Source: a virus. From it: a DNA stretch of 64,000 bases. The notes under the pieces are model-generated. The model was not told the DNA's origin and did not search any database. It worked only from the letters and a program-made list of their open reading frames with translations. The stretch spans positions 1 through 64,000 of the IMG/VR virus record IMGVR_UViG_3300008107_000089. One strand, given 5' to 3'. Positions 17,121-42,556 of the stretch are shown here, in pieces; position 1 is the stretch's first letter, and every line of letters starts with the position of its first letter. A program made the position numbers and the translations under genes.

Positions 17121-19700
17121 ATGTATCAAGCAATTTATTACGATAGGGAAACCTATACATTTCATTTACGTGACGATAAGACTGGTTGGAGCGAATTTAA
17201 ATATAATCGTCCACGCTATCGAATAGACCCTAATGGGGATTTTCCAACATTAGATGGTAAACGAGCTAATTTAGTAACCAAATATGATTGGAAGGATAAT
17301 TCATTATATGAATCTGATCTAGATGCTTACACAGCAGTGTTAATTGATAGATATAGAGACAGTGATGATACCGCTGAATGGCAAAACATAGTTTATCTAG
17401 ATATTGAGTGTGAAATTGCAGGCGCATTAACACCAGAATTAATTAAAAACGCTCCTACTAAGATAACATCAATATCAGTTTATGATGTTACAACTAAAAA
17501 ATATTACTGTTTAATCTTAGATGAAAAACAACAACTACAAACAGTAAATGAAGAAAATAGAGCGATCATTCCATTTGCTCATGAACATGATTTATTACAT
17601 TCGTTCCTTAATCTATGGGAACAATTAGATCCAACAATCATTTCAGGTTGGAATAGTGAATATTTCGATATTCCATTCTTATATTACCGAATAGAAAATC
17701 AATTAGGTACTGGTTATGCTAAACGTTTATCTCCAATAGGTAAAGTTAAGTTTGCTCAATACATGAATGATGCTCCTGTAGAACTAGGAGGATTAAATCA
17801 TCTTGATTACATGTTGTTATATAAAAAATATAACCCAAAACAAGAGGAATCTTACAAATTAGGTGATATTGGAACTAAATATGTTAATCTAGGTAAAGTA
17901 GAATATGAAGGTAATTTAGATAGATTATTCAATGATGATATAAATAAGTTCATTGAATATAACCTTCGCGACGTAGAAATTCTAATTGAATTAGAAAAGA
18001 AATTCAAATTTATCGAATTAACGATTGCAATTTGTCATCTATGTCATGTGCCTTATGAACAAATATACCTATCAACAGCATTAAATGATGGAGCTATATT
18101 AACATACCTAAAACGTCAGGGTATAGTTTCACCTAATAAACCAACTACTATTCGTCCTTCATTATATGAAGCTAAGGAAGAATATGCTGGTGGATACTTA
18201 AAAGACCCAGTACCAGGATTATATGAATGGGTTATTGACCTTGACTTTACGTCGTTGTATCCGTCTATTATACGTTCACTTAATATTGGTATTGAAACAT
18301 ACATTGGCCGTATTGTTAATAATGACAAATATGACAATAACTGGACATTGGATGATCTAAAGAAAATGGATCCTGAGCAATTAATTACTCTTGAAAAACT
18401 AAATGATGATAAAACTACTAACCAAAACCAAGTGTCAGTGGCTAAAATTATTCAGTTTATTGAGAATGGAAGTATATTAGTTGCAGCATCAGGAGCACTA
18501 TTCAGAACAGATCGCTCATCAGTAGTATGTGATGTACTAACTGATTGGTTTAATAAGCGTGTTGAATATAAGAATCTAATGAAGAAAGCCTATAAAGCAG
18601 GTGATGCTGTTAAAGGCGAATTCTACAATCGACGTCAACATGCTTACAAAATTAAATTAAATGACGTTTATGGTTGTTATGCTATTAATGGCTGGCGCTA
18701 TACTGATGGTCATAAAATCATATCTAAAGCTATTACATTAACTGGTCAGCGTGTAACACAAGAATCGATTAAATTCGTTAATGAATGGATGAATAATAGA
18801 TTAGGTACAACAGGTAAAGATTATGTTGTTACTTCAGATACCGATTCATTATTTATTCAGGTTAAGGATTTAGCACTTAGAAGACATCCAGAGCTTGCTA
18901 CAGCAGGTAGAGATGAATGGACTAGAGTAATTTTAGAGATTGCCTCTGAAATTCAACAAGCAGCAAATGCTAATATTGATCGTGTAACTAGAGAGTATTT
19001 CAATGTTAAAGAGCGTACTCACTACTTTGAATTAAAGCAAGAGGTGATATTGGAAAGAGGTTACTTTGCCGGTAAACGTCGTTACGCTATGTTTATTGTA
19101 AATAAAGAAGGTGTACCTGTTGAGGAATTAGATATGAAGGGTCTTGATCTAATGAAGTCAAATATGACTCCAATGTATCGTAAATTTGGAGAAAGCTTAA
19201 TCAAACAGATAATGTTTGGTACTGCTAAATCAGAAATTGATAAACGTATACTTGATTTTAAAAAGCACGTTAAAACAATTCCAATAGCAGAAATTGCTAA
19301 ACCAACAGGAGTAAAACAAATCCGTTCATATATTGAGCGCAAACCAGGAGCAGGTGAAATATTCTCACATTTGAAACTAAAAGCACCAATCAACACTAAA
19401 GCAGCTATATGGTACAATGATTTACTACGATTTAAAAGATTAGATAAACAATACCCATGTTTCACTGAAGGTGATAAAATGAAATATATTCAATTAAAAG
19501 CAAATCCATATAAAATTGACGTTATTGGGTTTACAGGTAATGACCCTGATTTCATCAACCAATTTATTGAGCAGTACGCAGACAGAGATGAGGGATTTGA
19601 AGCAACGTTGATGAATAAATTGATAGGTATCTATGAGGATTTAGGTTGGGACTTTCCATCAATGCACGAAAAGGCAGGTAAATTCTTTAAGTTTGGATAG
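17121..19700 (+). CDS. Family-B replicative DNA polymerase, 859 aa
   Basis: Exonuclease motifs YLDIECEI (near residue 91) and SGWNSEYFDIPFLYYR, then YNLRDVEI. Polymerase motif A is DLDFTSLYPSIIRS near residue 372, motif B LNDVYGCYAINGWRY, and motif C SDTDSLFIQ near residue 571. Length and order match T4 gp43-like replicases with proofreading. Acts with the clamp at 20065 and the clamp loader at 23780 and 25258. Confidence 0.95.
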   Translation: MYQAIYYDRETYTFHLRDDKTGWSEFKYNRPRYRIDPNGDFPTLDGKRANLVTKYDWKDNSLYESDLDAYTAVLIDRYRDSDDTAEWQNIVYLDIECEIAGALTPELIKNAPTKITSISVYDVTTKKYYCLILDEKQQLQTVNEENRAIIPFAHEHDLLHSFLNLWEQLDPTIISGWNSEYFDIPFLYYRIENQLGTGYAKRLSPIGKVKFAQYMNDAPVELGGLNHLDYMLLYKKYNPKQEESYKLGDIGTKYVNLGKVEYEGNLDRLFNDDINKFIEYNLRDVEILIELEKKFKFIELTIAICHLCHVPYEQIYLSTALNDGAILTYLKRQGIVSPNKPTTIRPSLYEAKEEYAGGYLKDPVPGLYEWVIDLDFTSLYPSIIRSLNIGIETYIGRIVNNDKYDNNWTLDDLKKMDPEQLITLEKLNDDKTTNQNQVSVAKIIQFIENGSILVAASGALFRTDRSSVVCDVLTDWFNKRVEYKNLMKKAYKAGDAVKGEFYNRRQHAYKIKLNDVYGCYAINGWRYTDGHKIISKAITLTGQRVTQESIKFVNEWMNNRLGTTGKDYVVTSDTDSLFIQVKDLALRRHPELATAGRDEWTRVILEIASEIQQAANANIDRVTREYFNVKERTHYFELKQEVILERGYFAGKRRYAMFIVNKEGVPVEELDMKGLDLMKSNMTPMYRKFGESLIKQIMFGTAKSEIDKRILDFKKHVKTIPIAEIAKPTGVKQIRSYIERKPGAGEIFSHLKLKAPINTKAAIWYNDLLRFKRLDKQYPCFTEGDKMKYIQLKANPYKIDVIGFTGNDPDFINQFIEQYADRDEGFEATLMNKLIGIYEDLGWDFPSMHEKAGKFFKFG

Positions 19701-20064: not shown

Positions 20065-20790
20065 ATGGAAAAACAATCATTCGTTTCGTTAATTAACAAA
20101 TACTATTTAGATGGTGTTGGTGAAAAAGTAAGATGGAGTGTTAAAGATAAACAAGCCACTATTAAAACATTCTCTGCTACTAAAGATATGGTAGGGATGG
20201 TAACAGGTGAGGTTGAATTACCCGATAGTGAATTTGTGATATTTGATACTAGTAAATTTTTAAAGCTAGTGGGCATTTGCAACCAATTCCTTACTACGGA
20301 TATACAATTTCAAAACAACATCGCCACTAAAATATTAGTAGCCGATAATGAATATAACCTTGAGTATGCGCTTGCTAATTTGATGCTTGCACCTCAAGTA
20401 AACTTTACAGTTGAGGACTTTGAATCGCATTATTCATTTTCAATTGATAATGACTTCATCAACAGATGGATTAAAGCTAAAAAAGCATTAAGTAGTGCTT
20501 ATTGCTCTATCCAACAAATAGAGGGAGAAACAGGCCCATTGATTGAATTTACCTTAGGTGAATTAGAAGGTCACACTAATAAAATTGTATTTACAGAAAC
20601 ACCCGCATCACATATTCCCGAACAACAACCAACAATGTTGCAATTCAATGCAGATTATTTGAAATCTATATTTGATGCTAACTATGGAACAACAGGAATC
20701 ATGTTTATCAATAATGAGGGTGCTATGAAGTTGGATTTTGAAAGTGAAGATGGACAAAAAGCCTCTTATGTGATTCTAGCGAAAGTGTAA
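20065..20790 (+). CDS. Sliding clamp (T4 gp45-like)
   Basis: ATG 20065 follows the previous stop by one base. VELPDSEFVIFDTSKFLKLV, ILVADNEYNLEYAL and the C-terminal YVILAKV are typical of phage PCNA-like clamps. 241 aa with the expected two-domain repeat per subunit. It tethers the polymerase; the loader subunits are encoded 3-5 kb downstream. Confidence 0.82.
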   Translation: MEKQSFVSLINKYYLDGVGEKVRWSVKDKQATIKTFSATKDMVGMVTGEVELPDSEFVIFDTSKFLKLVGICNQFLTTDIQFQNNIATKILVADNEYNLEYALANLMLAPQVNFTVEDFESHYSFSIDNDFINRWIKAKKALSSAYCSIQQIEGETGPLIEFTLGELEGHTNKIVFTETPASHIPEQQPTMLQFNADYLKSIFDANYGTTGIMFINNEGAMKLDFESEDGQKASYVILAKV

Positions 20791-20809
20791 GCTCGTATAT
20801 ATTTATATT

Positions 20810-20830
20810 TGAGATACTTGACAGGTCTCA
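20810..20830 (+). promoter_or_regulatory. Hairpin upstream of hsp20
   Basis: TGAGA (20810-20814) and TCTCA (20826-20830) enclose TACTTGACAGG. The loop is complementary, with one bulge, to the loop of the hairpin after hsp20 at 21470. A TATATTTATA-type box lies just upstream at about 20797. Confidence 0.55.
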
Positions 20831-20876
20831 TTTATTAAATAACCGCTTACCTTAGGGAAGCACAAACATTAAGAAC

Positions 20877-21458
20877 ATGACAATGAAAACAAACTTTGGA
20901 GACATCCCTGTCACTTTAGAAGGACAGATGTTTAACACAACAGGAACCTCAACATTTGCTATTGGAGGAACCTCACCACTAACATTCGCTAATAGTGGCA
21001 TCACATCAACTTGGACATCAGCTCCACCAACTTACAACGATTTCTGGAACTTTAATGAAGAATTTGATTTACTGTGGAAGTCATTCTTTGATAGTAACTC
21101 TGGATACAAGCCGATAAAGGAAAAAGTGGCTAGTATTCCGTGTGATATCCAAGAAACTGAGAATGGCTTGCTAATTGAAATTGCGGCAGTTGGGTTGGAT
21201 AAAGAAGACCTAGACATAATTGTGGATTCAGAAACACTACGTGTTGCTTACCGCAAAACAGAAAAAGAAGAAGAAGATGAGAAAAACGAGTATAGATACT
21301 TGTTACGCTCAATTAAAAAAGCAAGCTTCGATATTGGAATTAAAATTTCTAGTAAGTATGACTTACAGAAAATGGAAGCAAAATTAGAAAAAGGATTATT
21401 GATTTTAGATGTTCCTTTTGCTAAAGAAAATAAACCTAAAAAAGTTACGATTAAATAG
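20877..21458 (+). CDS. Small heat-shock protein, Hsp20 family
   Basis: A disordered Thr/Ser/Gly-rich N-terminus of about 55 residues, then an alpha-crystallin domain: IPCDIQETENGLLIEIAAVG, DIIVDSETLRVAYR, and a final beta-strand GLLILDVPF. It is a holdase that binds unfolding proteins. It precedes GroES/GroEL, forming a chaperone island. The start could be 20877 or the ATG at 20883. Confidence 0.9.
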   Translation: MTMKTNFGDIPVTLEGQMFNTTGTSTFAIGGTSPLTFANSGITSTWTSAPPTYNDFWNFNEEFDLLWKSFFDSNSGYKPIKEKVASIPCDIQETENGLLIEIAAVGLDKEDLDIIVDSETLRVAYRKTEKEEEDEKNEYRYLLRSIKKASFDIGIKISSKYDLQKMEAKLEKGLLILDVPFAKENKPKKVTIK

Positions 21459-21469
21459 TTTTGAAAACC

Positions 21470-21489
21470 GAAGACCTGTCAGTATCTTC
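21470..21489 (+). promoter_or_regulatory. Hairpin downstream of hsp20
   Basis: GAAGA (21470-21474) and TCTTC (21485-21489) enclose CCTGTCAGTA. Its reverse complement is nearly identical to the hairpin at 20810, with compensating changes in the stem. Confidence 0.55.
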
Positions 21490-21506
21490 ATTTAACAAGT
21501 TATAAT

Positions 21507-21800
21507 ATGAAAATAAAAGCGTTACATAATCACGTTGTGATTAAACAAGATGAGAATCAAGAAGAAAGTTATGGCCGCATCGTTGTTGCCGATTTAGGTA
21601 AAGAAAAACCACTTCAAGGTACAGTTGTAGAAGTAGGACCTGGTGTTCGTTCTATTACTGGAGAATACTTTATTAAAACTGAAGTAAAGGTGGGTGAAAC
21701 AGTAGTATTCCCTTCATTTGGAGGTACTAAAATTACTGTTGACGGTGAGGAATATATCATTATGAAGGAGTCAGATTTATTAATTGTACTAGAAAAATAA
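21507..21800 (+). CDS. groS: GroES co-chaperonin
   Basis: 97 aa: IKALHNHVVIKQDE, a mobile loop region SYGRIVVADLGKEKPLQGTV, VVEVGPG and VKVGETVVFPSFGGTKI. This is the standard Cpn10 strand order, with YIIMKESDLL at the end. Forms the heptameric lid for the GroEL encoded 3 bases downstream. Confidence 0.93.
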   Translation: MKIKALHNHVVIKQDENQEESYGRIVVADLGKEKPLQGTVVEVGPGVRSITGEYFIKTEVKVGETVVFPSFGGTKITVDGEEYIIMKESDLLIVLEK

Positions 21801-21803
21801 AAC

Positions 21804-23429
21804 ATGAGTAAAATAATCAGTTTCGATCGCGAAGCAAAAGAAAAGCTACAGAAAGGTATAGACAAAGTATACAAGGCAGTAGCAGTTACAATGGGTCCCT
21901 TTGGACGTAACGTATTAATTGAAAAAGAATACGGACAGGTAGGATCAACAAAAGACGGTGTTACAGTAGCAAAAACAATTTCATTGGAAGATCCAATCGA
22001 AAATATGGCTGCAACTGTAATTAAGCAGGCAGCATCTAAAACAGTTGATGCAGCTGGTGATGGTACTACAACATCAACAGTACTAGCACATTCTATTGCT
22101 ACAAGAGCATTAGATGCAACGTCTTATGCTTCGACTAATGCCACTCAGATTAAGAAAGGTATTGAAGAAGCAACTAAAAAAGTAGTTGATGCCCTAAAAG
22201 AAATATCTAAGGATATTACAGATGAAAACCAAATTAAACAAATTGCTACATTATCAGCAAATGGTGATGAAGAAATTGGTAATATCGTTGCAACAGCAAT
22301 TGATAAAGTAGGTAGAGATGGAGTTGTAACTGTAGAGAAATCACGTACAGGAGAAACAACACTAGAAGTTGTAGAAGGTTTACAATTTGATCGTGGTTAT
22401 AAATCACCTTACTTTGTAACTGACAACAATGCAATGCAAGTTACTTTAAATGATCCATATATTTTAGTTTATGATAAACGTATTAGTGCAGTTAAGGATT
22501 TACTTCCACTACTTGAACGTGTTTCTACTGAGAACAAATCTTTACTTATTATAGCAGAAGATATTGACGGTGAAGCACTAGCAACATTAGTAATGAACAA
22601 AGCACGTGGTGTATTGCAAGTTGCTGCTGTTAAGGCTCCTGAATTTGGTGATCGTAGAACAGCAATGTTAGAAGATATTGCTACACTAACTGGTGGTGAA
22701 GTAATCAGTAACGATAAAGGTATGACATTAGCTAAACTTGACATTAATTGGTTAGGTAAGGCTAGAGTAGTCACTATCAGTAAAGATACAACAACCATTG
22801 TTGATGGTAAAGGCGACGCTGATAAAATTGAAGCTCGTATCTTGAGTGTTAAAGCACAAATGGATTCTCCAAATACATCACCTTACGAAATTGAAAAATT
22901 ACAAGAGCGTTTAGGTAAAATGGTTGGAGGTGTAGCTATTATCAATGTAGGTGGTGCTAACGAAATTGAAATGGAAGAAAAGAAGGATCGTATTGATGAT
23001 GCTTTACAAGCAACTAAAGCCGCTCTTGAAGAAGGTATTCTACCAGGTGCTGGTATTGCTTTACTACAAGCAAGAAGAGTAATTGCAGATGATATTTTAG
23101 GTGATAGTGATAAAGCAAAAGGTGCTAGTATCATTTTCCAAGCATGTTCATCACCATTCAAACAAATTTTAAAGAATGCTGGTGAAGACGCTACTGAGTG
23201 GTGGATGAAACTAAGCAATACATCAAATATGGTACCAAACATAAGCAACGGAACAATAACAGATGCTTATTCATCAGGTATCATCGATCCAACTAAAGTA
23301 GTAAGATCAGCGTTGCAAAACGCAGCTGCAGCAGCTATTACATTGCTGATGACTGAATGTGTTATCCATGAAAAGCCTGAAGAAAAAAAGGACAATGACA
23401 TGGGTGGTATGGCAGGATTCGGAATGTAA
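21804..23429 (+). CDS. groL: GroEL chaperonin, 541 aa
   Basis: Full-length Cpn60 with VAVTMGPFGRNVLIEK, DGVTVAKTISLED, AGDGTTTSTVLAH (ATP site), GGVAIINVGG and EEGILPGAGIALL. The C-terminus ends GGMAGFGM, a host-like GGM tail. Nearly host length. Makes a folding chamber with GroES, perhaps for large phage structural proteins. Operon with hsp20 and groES. Confidence 0.96.
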   Translation: MSKIISFDREAKEKLQKGIDKVYKAVAVTMGPFGRNVLIEKEYGQVGSTKDGVTVAKTISLEDPIENMAATVIKQAASKTVDAAGDGTTTSTVLAHSIATRALDATSYASTNATQIKKGIEEATKKVVDALKEISKDITDENQIKQIATLSANGDEEIGNIVATAIDKVGRDGVVTVEKSRTGETTLEVVEGLQFDRGYKSPYFVTDNNAMQVTLNDPYILVYDKRISAVKDLLPLLERVSTENKSLLIIAEDIDGEALATLVMNKARGVLQVAAVKAPEFGDRRTAMLEDIATLTGGEVISNDKGMTLAKLDINWLGKARVVTISKDTTTIVDGKGDADKIEARILSVKAQMDSPNTSPYEIEKLQERLGKMVGGVAIINVGGANEIEMEEKKDRIDDALQATKAALEEGILPGAGIALLQARRVIADDILGDSDKAKGASIIFQACSSPFKQILKNAGEDATEWWMKLSNTSNMVPNISNGTITDAYSSGIIDPTKVVRSALQNAAAAAITLLMTECVIHEKPEEKKDNDMGGMAGFGM

Positions 23430-35786: not shown

Positions 35787-35859
35787 GGTGATCAAGCTAA
35801 CTTGGTAGAAGCGCGAGACTGAAAATCTCGAGGACTCAGCTCGGAACTGAGGTTCACCA
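35787..35859 (+). tRNA. tRNA-Phe(GAA)
   Basis: Acceptor GGTGATC/GTTCACC, anticodon loop CTGAAAA in a CGAGA/TCTCG stem. The T loop is CTCGGAA instead of the usual TTCGANN. CCA not encoded. Confidence 0.85.
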
Positions 35860-35910
35860 CACAAACTATAAAAAATGAAACGAAAGATAACTAAACGAAA
35901 ACGATAGTCT

Positions 35911-35928
35911 CCCTCTAGTAGAAGAGGG
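35911..35928 (+). other. Short hairpin between tRNA genes
   Basis: CCCTCT (35911-35916) pairs with AGAGGG (35923-35928). Lies between tRNA-Phe and tRNA-Lys; possible processing signal. Confidence 0.4.
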
Positions 35929-35936
35929 AATGAATA

Positions 35937-36012
35937 TACCCTCTTAACTCAGATGGATAGAGTACTAAACTTTTAATTTAGGAGTCACAAGTTCGAATCT
36001 TGTAGGGGGTAC
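35937..36012 (+). tRNA. tRNA-Lys(TTT)
   Basis: Acceptor TACCCTC/GGGGGTA, anticodon loop CTTTTAA in CTAAA/TTTAG, T loop TTCGAAT. Confidence 0.9.
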
Positions 36013-36040
36013 AAATGATCTTTGACATATTGGTATTAAA

Positions 36041-36113
36041 CATCCGCTTGGTGTAATGGTAACATGCCGGTCTCCAAAACCGTTGATTGCAGTTCGAGTC
36101 TGTAAGTGGGTGC
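36041..36113 (+). tRNA. tRNA-Trp(CCA)
   Basis: Acceptor CATCCGC/GTGGGTG, anticodon loop CTCCAAA, T loop TTCGAGT. Confidence 0.85.
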
Positions 36114-36117
36114 TAAC

Positions 36118-36238
36118 GGGGAAGAAATTCAAAACACTCTGTCGAATTTCTTCAGCAATGATAGTAATGATAAGAGTTACTTCGGTTAAAAATTACTCTG
36201 CAACAGTAAAATAGTTGGTTCGAATCCAACCTTCCCCG
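36118..36238 (+). tRNA. Outsized tRNA-Cys(GCA)-like gene, 121 nt, with embedded Y-like motif
   Basis: Perfect acceptor GGGGAAG (36118-36124)/CTTCCCC (36231-36237), a canonical T arm GTTGG-TTCGAAT-CCAAC and an anticodon-like arm TTACT-CTGCAAC-AGTAA (GCA). The 5' half is abnormal: a perfect 10-bp hairpin GAAGAAATTC/GAATTTCTTC, then TAGTAA (36162) and TTACTTCG (36177-36184), the motif of the Y-like RNAs. AGAGT/ACTCT (36173, 36195) competes with the anticodon stem. A normal tRNA-Cys(GCA) follows at 36323. It may be a tRNA-Y RNA hybrid rather than a working tRNA. Confidence 0.6.
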
Positions 36239-36243
36239 CAATT

Positions 36244-36316
36244 GCTCTTGTCGTTCAATGGATTAGGACTCTAGACTACGGATCTAGGAATAAGCGTTCG
36301 AATCGCTTCGAGAGTA
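36244..36316 (+). tRNA. tRNA-Arg(ACG)
   Basis: Acceptor GCTCTTG/CGAGAGT, anticodon loop CTACGGA in CTAGA/TCTAG, T arm AAGCG-TTCGAAT-CGCTT. Confidence 0.9.
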
Positions 36317-36322
36317 CAAAAT

Positions 36323-36393
36323 GGTTCTTTGGCCGAGTGGTTAGGCTCAGCTCTGCAAAAGCTGCTACACCTGTTCGATCCAGGTAGGAACCT
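36323..36393 (+). tRNA. tRNA-Cys(GCA)
   Basis: Acceptor GGTTCTT/AGGAACC, anticodon loop CTGCAAA in CAGCT/AGCTG, discriminator T as expected for Cys. Confidence 0.9.
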
Positions 36394-36400
36394 CAAATAA

Positions 36401-36475
36401 CGAGATGTAGCGTAATCAGGTTATCGCGCTTGGTTTGGGACCAAGAGGCTGGAGGTTCGAATCCTCTCATCTCGA
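36401..36475 (+). tRNA. tRNA-Pro(TGG)
   Basis: Acceptor CGAGATG/CATCTCG, anticodon loop TTTGGGA in CTTGG/CCAAG. Confidence 0.9.
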
Positions 36476-36481
36476 CAACAT

Positions 36482-36557
36482 GGGGTAGAAGCTCTAGTGG
36501 ATGAGCACAAGATTTGCATTCTTGAGGTTGTGGATTCGAGTTCCACCTACTCCACCA
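36482..36557 (+). tRNA. tRNA-Ala(TGC)
   Basis: Acceptor GGGGTAG/CTACTCC with the G3-T70 alanine identity pair, anticodon loop TTTGCAT, encoded CCA at 36555-36557. Confidence 0.92.
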
Positions 36558-36559
36558 AT

Positions 36560-36632
36560 GGAAGATTAGCTCAGCTGGAAGAGCACTTGTTTTACATACA
36601 AGGGGTCACAAGTTCGATTCTTGTATCTTCTA
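36560..36632 (+). tRNA. tRNA-Val(TAC)
   Basis: Acceptor GGAAGAT/ATCTTCT, anticodon loop TTTACAT in CTTGT/ACAAG. Confidence 0.9.
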
Positions 36633-36637
36633 CAACA

Positions 36638-36711
36638 AGCAGATATAGCACAACGGTTAGTGCTCGGCCTTGCCAAGGCTGAGATGCCAGTTCGAGTCTG
36701 GCTATCTGCTC
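36638..36711 (+). tRNA. tRNA-Gly(GCC)
   Basis: Acceptor AGCAGAT/ATCTGCT, anticodon loop TTGCCAA in CGGCC/GGCTG, T loop TTCGAGT. Confidence 0.9.
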
Positions 36712-36715
36712 ATAT

Positions 36716-36787
36716 TGCCGTATTGTGTAATGGTTAGCACAATAGTTTTTGGAGCTATTTGTCTTGGTTCGAGTCCAGGTGCGGCAA
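36716..36787 (+). tRNA. tRNA-Gln(TTG)
   Basis: Acceptor TGCCGTA/TGCGGCA, anticodon loop TTTTGGA in ATAGT/GCTAT. Confidence 0.9.
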
Positions 36788-36792
36788 CAATT

Positions 36793-36881
36793 GGAGGTGT
36801 CATCCGAAATTGGTATCGGTCCGGTCTTGAAAACCGGTTAGCGTGCTGAGCGCTATGTAGGTTCGATCCCTATCACCTCCG
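36793..36881 (+). tRNA. tRNA-Ser(TGA)
   Basis: Acceptor GGAGGTG/CACCTCC, anticodon loop CTTGAAA in CCGGT/ACCGG, long variable arm typical of Ser. Confidence 0.92.
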
Positions 36882-36883
36882 CT

Positions 36884-36956
36884 GTGACTATGGTGTTAAT
36901 GGTTAGCACAACAGATTGTGGTTCTGTTGGTACGGATTCGAGTTCCGTTAGTCACC
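36884..36956 (+). tRNA. tRNA-His(GTG)
   Basis: Acceptor GTGACTA/TAGTCAC, anticodon loop TTGTGGT in ACAGA/TCTGT, C discriminator. Confidence 0.9.
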
Positions 36957-36961
36957 CATTT

Positions 36962-37042
36962 GGAGAGTAAGCAGGAGGTCCTGTAGACAGTTTGCTAAAC
37001 TGTTGGCTGTAAAAGGTCGAGTTTCGATTACTCTGCTCTCCG
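36962..37042 (+). tRNA. tRNA-Ser(GCT)
   Basis: Acceptor GGAGAGT/GCTCTCC, anticodon loop TTGCTAA in CAGT/ACTG, extra variable arm, T arm GAGT-TTCGATT-ACTC. Confidence 0.85.
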
Positions 37043-37047
37043 CACTA

Positions 37048-37122
37048 TGCTTATGTAGTTCAATGGTCAGAGCACACGCCTGATACGCGTGAAGTTGGAA
37101 GTTCGAGTCTTCCCATAAGCAC
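37048..37122 (+). tRNA. tRNA-Ile(GAT)
   Basis: Acceptor TGCTTAT/ATAAGCA, anticodon loop CTGATAC in CACGC/GCGTG. Confidence 0.9.
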
Positions 37123-37126
37123 AATA

Positions 37127-37200
37127 CGCTGATGTAGCTCAGGGGCAGAGCAGGAACCTGTTAAGTTCAAGGTCGAGATATCGTAATTCTCCATCAGCGC
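37127..37200 (+). tRNA. tRNA-Asn(GTT)
   Basis: Acceptor CGCTGAT/ATCAGCG, anticodon loop CTGTTAA in GAAC/GTTC. The T arm is degenerate (loop ATCGTAA). Confidence 0.8.
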
Positions 37201-37205
37201 AATAA

Positions 37206-37287
37206 GCCGACGTCGCATAGTGGCAATTGCTGGGGACTGTAAATCCCCTCTCTTCGGAGTTCAGAGGTTCGAGTCCTCTCGGCGGCA
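37206..37287 (+). tRNA. tRNA-Tyr(GTA)
   Basis: Acceptor GCCGACG/CGGCGGC with one mismatch, anticodon loop CTGTAAA in GGGGA/TCCCC, long variable arm. Confidence 0.88.
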
Positions 37288-37327
37288 CAAATGAATGGCA
37301 AAATAAAAATTGTACATTCAATATAAT

Positions 37328-37438
37328 TGATGAATAGTAAGGATCAGCGTTACTTCGTGAGCATGATGCTCGTCAAAAATTAGGACTTTGAAAATGCGGT
37401 TTGATTCCGCCTGAAACGCTCCCAATGTTCTTTCATCA
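37328..37438 (+). ncRNA. Y-RNA-like RNA 1, with tRNA-like apical domain
   Basis: Closing helix TGATGAA (37328-37334)/TTCATCA (37432-37438); 5' loop TAGTAA (37335-37340) opposite CAATGTTCT; helix GG-ATC bulge-AGCGTT (37341-37351)/AACGCT-CC (37415-37422); then ACTTCG. The apical part holds GAGCA-TGA-TGCTC (D-arm-like) and GCGG-TTTGATT-CCGC (T-arm-like, 37396-37410), but no proper anticodon arm. This agrees with bacterial Y RNAs that couple a Ro-binding stem with a tRNA-like module. The assignment is inference from shared structure with three other elements and the nearby Ro60 gene. Confidence 0.6.
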
Positions 37439-37441
37439 GTA

Positions 37442-37515
37442 TGCTCTGTTCGACTAAGGGCTAGGTCACTTCCCTTTCACGGAAGTAATACGGGTTCGAA
37501 TCCCGTACAGAGTAC
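37442..37515 (+). tRNA. tRNA-Glu(TTC)
   Basis: Acceptor TGCTCTG/CAGAGTA, anticodon loop CTTTCAC in CTTCC/GGAAG, T arm ACGGG-TTCGAAT-CCCGT. Confidence 0.92.
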
Positions 37516-37518
37516 AAA

Positions 37519-37614
37519 GTGAGAAGCAGACGAAAGTGATTCTACGGTCAGTGTACATATTCCGTAGATAGCTAGTAGAAACATTGATTTGTTAGACGTA
37601 ATAAATCTTCTCAC
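37519..37614 (+). ncRNA. Unclassified structured RNA, 96 nt
   Basis: Closed by a perfect 8-bp helix GTGAGAAG (37519-37526)/CTTCTCAC (37607-37614). Inside are CTACGG/CCGTAG and a T-arm-like AACA-TTGATT-TGTT hairpin. It sits in the spacing of a tRNA but has no canonical anticodon arm and lacks the TAGTAA/TTACTTCG motif. Possibly a tRNA mimic or a divergent relative of the Y-like RNAs. Confidence 0.5.
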
Positions 37615-37620
37615 CTATTT

Positions 37621-37695
37621 GGTCTATTAGTGTAATGGTTAACACGCTGCACTGTCTATGCGGTAGTCTCGGTTCGAACCCGTGATAGACCGCCA
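37621..37695 (+). tRNA. tRNA-Asp(GTC)
   Basis: Acceptor GGTCTAT/ATAGACC, anticodon loop CTGTCTA in CTGCA/TGCGG, encoded CCA at 37693-37695. Confidence 0.92.
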
Positions 37696-37700
37696 ATAAA

Positions 37701-37760
37701 ACTACCTGCTGGTACAACCAGCGCATGACGTGGATGGTGACTAAGTGGAGAGTGGGTAGT
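37701..37760 (+). ncRNA. Unclassified structured RNA, 60 nt
   Basis: ACTACC (37701-37706) pairs with GGTAGT (37755-37760), enclosing a GCTGG-TACAA-CCAGC hairpin and a GC-richer tail. Not a tRNA. Seen only once in the window. Confidence 0.4.
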
Positions 37761-37764
37761 ATAT

Positions 37765-37838
37765 TGACCTTTAGCTCATCAGGTTAGAGCAACGCTCTCA
37801 TAAAGCGTGGGTGTCCAGTTCGAGTCTGGGAAGGTCAA
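37765..37838 (+). tRNA. tRNA-Met(CAT), copy 1
   Basis: Acceptor TGACCTT/AAGGTCA, anticodon loop CTCATAA in ACGCT/AGCGT. With a CAT anticodon it could be elongator Met, initiator or Ile2. Confidence 0.88.
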
Positions 37839-37840
37839 CA

Positions 37841-37926
37841 AAACCATAGTAATAGAAGTCTTACTTCGCTAAGCAAAAGCAACAGACTTGTAAACTGAAA
37901 CACAGACTTCTAGGTTTTCTTGGTTT
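37841..37926 (+). ncRNA. Y-RNA-like RNA 2
   Basis: Closing helix AAACCA (37841-37846)/TGGTTT (37921-37926); 5' loop TAGTAA (37847-37852) opposite GGTTTTCT; perfect 9-bp helix TAGAAGTCT (37853-37861)/AGACTTCTA (37904-37912); then TACTTCG (37862-37868). The apical loop is about 42 nt with small hairpins. Same architecture as the elements at 37328, 40025 and 40231 but different paired bases, so the pairings are supported by covariation. Confidence 0.6.
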
Positions 37927-37935
37927 AATTTATAT

Positions 37936-38007
37936 TGTGGGGTAGAGCAGAGGTAGCTCGGAAGGCTCATAACCTTTAGGTCGCCAGTTCGATCCTGGCC
38001 CCCGCAA
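37936..38007 (+). tRNA. tRNA-Met(CAT), copy 2
   Basis: Acceptor TGTGGGG/CCCCGCA, anticodon loop CTCATAA in AAGG/CCTT. Differs throughout from copy 1, so the two probably have distinct roles. Confidence 0.88.
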
Positions 38008-38011
38008 CATA

Positions 38012-38085
38012 AGCTTGGTTAGTTCAATCGGTAGAACGCTAGATTTGTAATCTTGAAACGACAGTTCGACTCTGTCACTGAGCTC
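38012..38085 (+). tRNA. tRNA-Thr(TGT)
   Basis: Acceptor AGCTTGG/CTGAGCT, anticodon loop TTTGTAA, T loop TTCGACT. Confidence 0.87.
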
Positions 38086-38088
38086 ATA

Positions 38089-38162
38089 AGCGAGTATAGT
38101 ATAACGGCTATTATGCCTTCCTTCCAAGTAGGATATGTCAGTTCGATTCTGACTACTCGCTC
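38089..38162 (+). tRNA. tRNA-Gly(TCC)
   Basis: Acceptor AGCGAGT/ACTCGCT, anticodon loop CTTCCAA, T arm GTCAG-TTCGATT-CTGAC. Confidence 0.88.
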
Positions 38163-38166
38163 ACTT

Positions 38167-38238
38167 GGTCCTATAGTTAAACGGATATAACGTCCGCCTT
38201 CTAAGCAGATGTTCCAAGTTCGATTCTTGGTGGGACTA
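38167..38238 (+). tRNA. tRNA-Arg(TCT)
   Basis: Acceptor GGTCCTA/TGGGACT, anticodon loop CTTCTAA, T arm CCAAG-TTCGATT-CTTGG. Confidence 0.88.
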
Positions 38239-38243
38239 CACTT

Positions 38244-38325
38244 GCCTCCTTGGTGGAATTGGCAGACACGGTAGACTTAGGATCTACTGCCGCAAGGTTT
38301 GAGAGTTCGAGTCTCTCAGGAGGTA
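38244..38325 (+). tRNA. tRNA-Leu(TAG)
   Basis: Acceptor GCCTCCT/AGGAGGT, D arm GGTGGAATTGGCAGACACG typical of Leu, anticodon loop CTTAGGA, long variable arm. Confidence 0.92.
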
Positions 38326-38336
38326 CTTAAAAATAT

Positions 38337-39983: not shown

Positions 39984-40024
39984 TATATATTTATATACAC
40001 AAATAGATCTTTGATAAAAATATT

Positions 40025-40222
40025 ACCGTAGTAAGGGAGTGAGGTACTTCGCAATTAAATTTTGCGGCTTCAAGCCGCTCATTAATTATGATTCAATAAT
40101 CAACCCCCCTCTGGTTACTAGGATAGAGGACGTATACTGGTGTGTAAAAAGCACTTGACAACGAGCATAAACGTCCTAGTGCTGTTCGGAGCTTCCGAAC
40201 GACTCACCCCAATTAACTCGGT
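40025..40222 (+). ncRNA. Y-RNA-like RNA 3, about 198 nt, with predicted pseudoknot
   Basis: Closing helix ACCG (40025-40028)/CGGT (40219-40222); 5' loop TAGTAA (40029-40034) opposite AATTAACT; helix GGG, bulged A, GTGAG (40035-40043)/CTCAC-CCC (40203-40210); then TACTTCG (40045-40051). The apical part has GCGGC/GCCGC and GTTCGG/CCGAAC (40184-40200) hairpins. AGGACGT (40127)/ACGTCCT (40171) interleaves with AGCACT (40150)/AGTGCT (40178), which predicts an H-type pseudoknot. It lies 67 bases downstream of the Ro60 gene, as Y RNA genes often do. Confidence 0.65.
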
Positions 40223-40230
40223 TACCTTAT

Positions 40231-40304
40231 TTAATGCTGTAGTTATAATTGAGTTACTTCGCTTATACATGAAAAACACTCAGTTAGTTATTCTCAGTTA
40301 TTAA
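40231..40304 (+). ncRNA. Y-RNA-like RNA 4, about 74 nt
   Basis: Closing helix TTAATGCTG (40231-40239)/CAGTTATTAA with one bulge (40295-40304); 5' loop TAGTTA (40240-40245) opposite GTTATTCT; 9-bp helix TAATTGAGT (40246-40254)/ACTCAGTTA (40278-40286); then TACTTCG (40255-40261). A T-run (TTTTT) follows directly, consistent with a transcript end. Minimal form of the family: the apical loop is only about 23 nt. Confidence 0.6.
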
Positions 40305-40322
40305 TTTTTAAAAAAATCGGTG

Positions 40323-41724: not shown

Positions 41725-41814
41725 GCCCTTGTGGTGGAATAGGTAGACACGCAGGACTTAAAATCCTGTGGACCGAAAAAGTCCGTGCGGGTTCGATTCC
41801 CGCTGGGGGCACCA
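41725..41814 (+). tRNA. tRNA-Leu(TAA)
   Basis: Acceptor GCCCTTG/TGGGGGC, anticodon loop CTTAAAA in CAGGA/TCCTG, normal variable arm, encoded CCA at 41812-41814. Confidence 0.93.
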
Positions 41815-42155: not shown

Positions 42156-42539
42156 GGGGATGTTTGGTATTGATTGCTATGCGATTGGTAGTACCACATG
42201 CAGACGTTCGGTAGTGTCGTCTTAAAAAGCTACAAACAAATAAATGACGAATTGTCAACTATGACCTTCGACGACCTTATGGCGTTCGTAGGTGCCGATT
42301 ACGCTTTAGCAGCCTAGTCCGCGTCGGGTGTGAGTAACCTAGGAACAGAAGACCACTGAGTATTCACGATCGACTCATTAAATAAGGACTGTGAATTAGT
42401 TTCCTGATGTCATAAATCAGGTGGTGGAAGTCGACCATATCGGTTCGCCCCTACTGATCAGATTTATCAGATCTAAGCATGTGATATGCTGGTATTATGA
42501 ATACTTAGCAAGACACGGGTTCGACTCCCGTCATCTCCA
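42156..42539 (+). ncRNA. ssrA: tmRNA (SsrA), phage-encoded
   Basis: Acceptor GGGGATG (42156-42162)/CATCTCC (42532-42538) with the G3-T70 alanine identity pair, T arm CACGGG-TTCGACT-CCCGT. The tag frame reads from AAT at 42243 to TAG at 42315-42317: 24 residues, starting NDELSTM and ending GADYALAA. The host-like ALAA terminus would direct tagged proteins to ClpXP-type proteases; a phage ClpP is encoded at 32731. The tag is longer than usual. Exact resume codon (ATA or AAT) uncertain. CCA not encoded. Confidence 0.92.
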
Positions 42540-42556
42540 CTTATTGTTCATCTTTT

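Follow-up and report, generated by a model that had tools for sequence, protein, structure and literature searches.

Complementary elements flanking hsp20 covary in uncultured phages with T4-like gene content

The hsp20 locus and its flanking elements

The window, the whole stretch of DNA analysed (64,000 nucleotides), covers positions 1-64,000 of a 64,867-base uncultured virus record. The region around hsp20 is T4-like, as judged by gene content, with the gene order gp45-like clamp, hsp20, groES, groEL, clamp loader. No close isolated phage was found; the nearest GroEL of a named phage is that of Flavobacterium phage immuto (57% identity). The features of the locus are as follows.

17121-19700: family B DNA polymerase
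20065-20790, + strand: gp45-like sliding clamp, the gene before hsp20 (PHROG 223 DNA polymerase processivity factor, 5e-7)
20796-20807, + strand: promoter-like box TATATATTTATA, immediately 5' of E1
20810-20830, + strand: E1, the 5' element, hairpin TGAGA[UACUUGACAGG]UCUCA, of which 20811-20828 pairs with 21472-21488
20845-20861, + strand: E2, covarying hairpin GCUU-A-CC[UUAG]GG-AAGC between E1 and the hsp20 start
20877-21458, + strand: hsp20, the enclosed cistron, an alpha-crystallin small heat shock protein of 193 aa (Pfam PF00011, 8e-10; PHROG 432 Hsp20, 2e-11)
21459-21468, + strand: TTTTGAAAAC stretch from the hsp20 stop to E3, kept in most relatives
21470-21489, + strand: E3, the 3' element GAAGACCUGUCAGUAUCUUC, complementary to E1 and covarying with it
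21507-21800, + strand: groES, the next cistron after hsp20 (Pfam Cpn10, 8e-25)
21804-23429, + strand: groEL (Pfam Cpn60_TCP1, 1e-68)

Hsp20 of the window type has a long Thr/Gly/Ser-rich N-terminal extension (20877-21060), which is absent from another Hsp20 type found at the same locus. The window also encodes 24 tRNA genes and a phage tmRNA with the tag DELSTMTFDDLMAFVGADYALAA (35787-38326, 41725-41814 and 42156-42542).

The initial annotation had quoted TGAGA-TACTTGACAGG-TCTCA at 20810-20830 and GAAGA-CCTGTCAGTA-TCTTC at 21470-21489, either side of hsp20, and both sequences are exact. Positions 20811-20828 and 21472-21488 can form 16 Watson-Crick pairs and one G·U pair, leaving a single U (20818) bulged. 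The inverted match TGACAGGTCT/AGACCTGTCA, perfect over 10 nt, is confined to these two sites in the window and, with one mismatch allowed, in the 64,867-base record; the E1 motif was not found at other places in either. The 3' end of E1 lies 46 nt from the hsp20 ATG. No intrinsic T-tract terminators were found at E1 or E3. Compared with shuffles, the E1 region folds mildly better (z -1.6) and the surroundings of E3 no better (z +0.94), the E3 hairpin being marginal in this sequence. Because E1 folds barely above shuffles and E3 not above them, the window sequence alone is no proof of a pair.

The exact TATATATTTATA motif occurs four times in the window (20796, 26762, 35559 and 39984), always intergenic and on the + strand, against 0.23 occurrences expected. 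In relatives lacking hsp20, TATATATTTATA or CATATACGTATATACG stands directly before groES, without E1 and E3. It is likely a phage promoter element. An ORF-free stretch 3' of a promoter-like box, 39997-40310 (+), folds better than shuffles (z -2.5) with a closing stem; it had no match in Rfam, and an 81% identical copy is present in one relative (G001:C1:21038-21396). This stretch is a candidate non-coding RNA. At the other end of the cistron, AGTTTTGAAA directly follows the hsp20 stop in most loci and is not kept in L079, L080, L101 and L133. A small ORF of ~65 aa, starting just past E3, lies between E3 and groES in L022 (L022:3460-3657) and also in L015, L020, L057 and L064; that of L022 had no PHROG match.

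Conservation and covariation of the pair

Queries with groEL and hsp20 gave 79 loci, to which two later scans added others. All carriers are uncultured metagenomic contigs. Conservation in related phages, on which the initial annotation had staked its reading, is complete: the pair is present in every relative having hsp20 with both flanks on the contig (53 distinct loci), and it covaries in all of them. Loop and partner switch together from clade to clade, with GACAGG/CCTGTC in 34 loci, GGTAGG/CCTACC in 8 and GATAGG/CCTATC in 3. Further combinations are CTTAGG/CCTAAG, GCTAGG/CCTAGC and GGTGGG/CCCGCC, the last with one G·U. The entire 17-bp helix differs in sequence in L066, and in L141 an E1 stem of GCTAG/CTAGC is accompanied by an E3 in exact agreement with the entire loop (TACTTGGTAGG/CCTACCAAGTA).

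Of the cells in the 15 core pairs, 95.6% are canonical. This dropped to a mean of 86.6% (maximum 89.1%) on permuting E3s among loci, a control that ignores kinship, and to 32-47% on sliding the register, which preserves kinship. Double compensatory events on the hsp20 protein tree number 33, against a mean of 5 (maximum 12) for permuted pairs and 0-5 for slid registers. For twelve divergent rows the alignment was made manually, one bulged T being left out of the L066 row. Comparison of free duplex energy per locus with cross-locus pairings was blurred by extra AT-rich pairing beyond the core.

Departures from Watson-Crick pairing favour G·U, with 16 changes to G-U against 5 to A-C; the corresponding cells in automatically aligned rows number 33 and 4. 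Fixed-column counts were used, those from free local alignments being uninformative since unpaired flanks are included. DNA repeats would give no G·U/A·C bias and an antisense transcript the reverse bias, so that the preference seen in these alignments is taken as a sign of RNA with the hsp20 sense, not of DNA repeats. The marks of a conserved cis-acting structured RNA are thus present, namely compensatory changes above controls and RNA-type G-U deviations. Base pairing in the transcript around hsp20, as first proposed, is borne out by the covariation and by whole-cistron folds, changes in stem and loop alike being compensated. The flanking sequences have co-evolved in a group of uncultured T4-like phages such that pairing in the mRNA stays possible, and we hold the E1:E3 pairing to be very probably real and functional.

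The elements are linked exclusively to hsp20. A covariance model of the E1-E2 leader (R1) found one match per genome, only where hsp20 is present; contigs without hsp20, including four of 159-172 kb, had neither a leader match nor an HSP20 domain anywhere. The leader pattern had 0 matches in bacterial genomes. Some phages have the hsp20 unit as a whole and others lack it. The pair persists across a switch of Hsp20 protein type in close relatives (L003 vs L005, 78% vs 46% identity), where the downstream gene changes, and without gp45 upstream (L141-L143). In 36 of 50 loci, pairing in E3 begins 15-18 nt past the first base of the hsp20 stop codon, whereas E3 is a variable 10-39 nt from the next ATG (10-15 nt in 16 loci). 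Because the first spacing is steady and the second varies, the element, by its placement, is taken to belong to hsp20 and not groES. No single effect on a downstream gene follows from the anatomy, again because the distance from E3 to the start varies.

Outside this group, the hsp20 flanks of eight other phages (isolated; cyanophage, rhizobial) gave no convincing pair and mostly ordinary complementarity. Those of L152 and L154 (4 and 3 of 100 shuffles) were treated as not convincing. A Bacteroidetes-like lipoprotein ORF lies upstream of hsp20 in L142 (L142:411-1616), on a contig that otherwise carries a phage groES-groEL block; either this ORF was acquired or the contig is chimeric.

Hairpins and the long-range duplex

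Unguided folding of the whole cistron recovered the E1:E3 helix with P>0.93 in 50/50 loci, over spans of 547-815 nt, and with a duplex probability of 1.00 in the window. Mean free energies were -27.8 kcal/mol for the E1:E3 duplex, -4.6 kcal/mol for the E1 hairpin and -1.6 kcal/mol for the E3 hairpin. Nearest-neighbour folding leaves out ribosomes, kinetics and pseudoknots, and E1:E3 may therefore be disrupted in translated mRNA.

The E1 stem itself covaries, with 26 compensatory events on the hsp20 tree and 4/5 stem pairs altered on both sides in an 18-sequence subset. The E3 hairpin is weak: it has 6 compensatory events, reaches 0.0 kcal/mol in a good share of loci and is absent in L141 and L143 (0.0 kcal/mol). 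Covariation of the long-range pairing is not confined to the loops but extends to the stem strands (r7:a4, r8:a3 and t1:a1), and the 3' stem strand of E1 covaries with its own 5' strand and also with E3. Since this strand covaries with both partners, the alignments suggest two mutually exclusive states, a hairpin that would form first and a long-range duplex that would replace it later.

The initial annotation had pictured two kissing hairpins. Its loop pairing stands; its intact E3 hairpin is poorly supported, with 6 events against 26 for E1, and the pairing runs beyond the loops. A true kissing complex, with both stems intact and only the loops (9-11 nt) paired, perhaps stabilised by a protein, would accord with the strong covariation of the E1 stem and with L141, whose E3 matches the whole loop beside a GCTAG/CTAGC stem. 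It would need two stable hairpins, however, and E3 is not one (mean -1.6 kcal/mol, 0.0 in L141 and L143); covarying pairs lie beyond the loop, and the extended duplex is far more stable. We consider such a complex unlikely. The data agree better with an extended duplex, or with a largely unpaired strand caught by a hairpin loop, than with two kissing hairpins that both stay intact, and we lean towards strand exchange rather than pure kissing.

E2 is found in nearly all hsp20 leaders. It has a bulged A, a CC/GG pair and a UUAG/UUCG tetraloop (AAUU in L052); 94% of its cells are paired and 3 pairs are altered on both sides. Of 83 loci, 46 contain a single copy of ACCTTAGGG. Taken together, the E1 and E2 helices contain 17 cells with change on both sides, compared to 4.4 in shuffled data. 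Two other leader candidates were rejected. A mini-ORF between E1 and E2 has an in-frame ATG and stop in several relatives and ACG or no start in others, and is not general. No covariation supports pairing between CACAAA, the tail of E2, and the TTTTG stretch, and CACAAAA is kept in relatives without TTTTG.

Possible roles and known parallels

The best explanation overall, and one we regard as reasonably probable, is an RNA helix closing the hsp20 cistron and governing how this segment is processed or degraded. E1 and E3 would each supply one half of a cis-acting RNA structure that serves this cistron specifically. Transcription would start just upstream of E1, as the promoter-like box suggests, and the nascent 5' end would fold first as the E1 hairpin. 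E3, ~16 nt past the hsp20 stop codon, would pair with the E1 loop once transcribed. The pairing would then zip into a 14-17 bp helix, opening the E1 stem and enclosing the hsp20 coding sequence in a loop of ~550-800 nt. Most likely the helix would determine what becomes of this portion of the mRNA. It could protect both ends of the hsp20 segment, or it could act as a double-stranded processing site (e.g. for RNase III) between hsp20 and groES-groEL. The outcome would be a set ratio of small HSP to chaperonin. This role in processing or decay relative to groES-groEL is a tentative part of the scheme, conceivable on our analysis rather than probable. A function in mRNA stability or in setting hsp20 apart from groES/groEL, as suggested initially, would be plausible.

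Several known RNA systems resemble parts of this arrangement. Precursors of rRNA contain long-range stems for RNase III processing, in which a single helix formed by inverted, mutually complementary flanks closes off a long stretch of RNA. E1 and E3 are likewise complementary flanks closing a long segment; here the helix is shorter, the segment is protein-coding and processing is putative. In the kissing-loop elements of plus-strand RNA viruses (3' CITE type), the loop of a hairpin in the 5' leader base-pairs with a 3' element of that RNA, as the E1 leader hairpin loop does with E3. The differences are that the RNA here is a dsDNA phage mRNA and the extended duplex is favoured, the translation enhancer being a feature of the viral systems. 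ROSE and fourU RNA thermometers are cis-acting RNA structures in the leaders of bacterial small heat shock genes, and the hsp20-type gene here likewise has a cis-acting structure in its leader. Unlike in those thermometers, no Shine-Dalgarno sequestration is seen and the partner lies past the stop codon. A search of 20700-21600 against Rfam (E<=5) returned one chance match (bxd_6, far under its cut-off) and no thermometer family.

The closest experimental parallel is the icaR mRNA of Staphylococcus aureus, in which pairing of the 5' and 3' UTRs prevents initiation and creates a substrate for RNase III; the UCCCCUG motif of the long 3' UTR was shown experimentally to pair with the Shine-Dalgarno region (PMC3868564). 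The 5' and 3' untranslated regions of hsp20 also pair, by computation, in what we infer to be a shared transcript. In contrast to icaR, the helix is 14-17 bp long and connects a hairpin of the 5' leader, located ahead of the start region, with an element ~16 nt beyond the stop codon; it lies in a phage operon and shows clade-wide covariation. It does not cover the Shine-Dalgarno/start region, the AGGAGG of relatives being outside E1 and E3. Because the start region is uncovered, the structure is not classed as an icaR mechanism.

Control of translation would have E1:E3, perhaps with E2, modulate initiation at hsp20 (thermometer-like or icaR-like) or at the gene after E3. The heat-shock nature of hsp20, the position of E2 just before the start, the 16 loci with the next ATG 10-15 nt from E3 and the blocked initiation of icaR (PMC3868564) all speak for it. 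Against this, the hsp20 start and the AGGAGG of some relatives are outside E1:E3, the spacing to the next ATG is not conserved and no thermometer of Rfam matched, which leaves this reading doubtful.

It is extremely improbable that the flanks act as DNA-level inverted repeats, whether as a pair of regulator sites, transposon ends or an invertible segment. E1 and E3 are inverted copies with palindromic ends, and the whole hsp20 unit is present or absent depending on the phage. However, G-U is preferred over A-C, and the sequence differs by clade with complementarity alone kept, which speaks against the common DNA regulator site suggested initially. Nor does a DNA site of inverted copies hold in L141-L143, where E3 does not copy the E1 stem. 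Moreover, hsp20 is co-directional with gp45, groES and groEL wherever these were placed, and it lies alone between the repeats, with no transposase or recombinase. Independent local hairpins (terminators or stabilisers), alike by chance or duplication and not interacting, would suit the local E1 hairpin and the commonness of intergenic hairpins, but are refuted by E1:E3 covariation over 53 loci unless the alignments are wrong, and neither element has a T-tract terminator.

The combined evidence points to E1:E3 as a previously undescribed RNA structure closing hsp20 into a loop. No conserved, covariation-supported 5'-3' UTR pairing in a dsDNA phage was found in the literature searched, which lay largely outside subscription journals. 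More speculatively, and improbably in our estimate, the element may represent a new class of dsDNA-phage cis RNA switch, in which a 5'-terminal hairpin swaps strands with an element located past the stop codon, closes a single cistron, responds to temperature or stress and tunes small HSP against GroES-GroEL. The natural compensatory variants available across the clade make E1:E3 directly testable. If the cistron-closing helix is confirmed, cis-acting RNA control would be linked to a small heat shock gene that a phage carries beside its groES-groEL.
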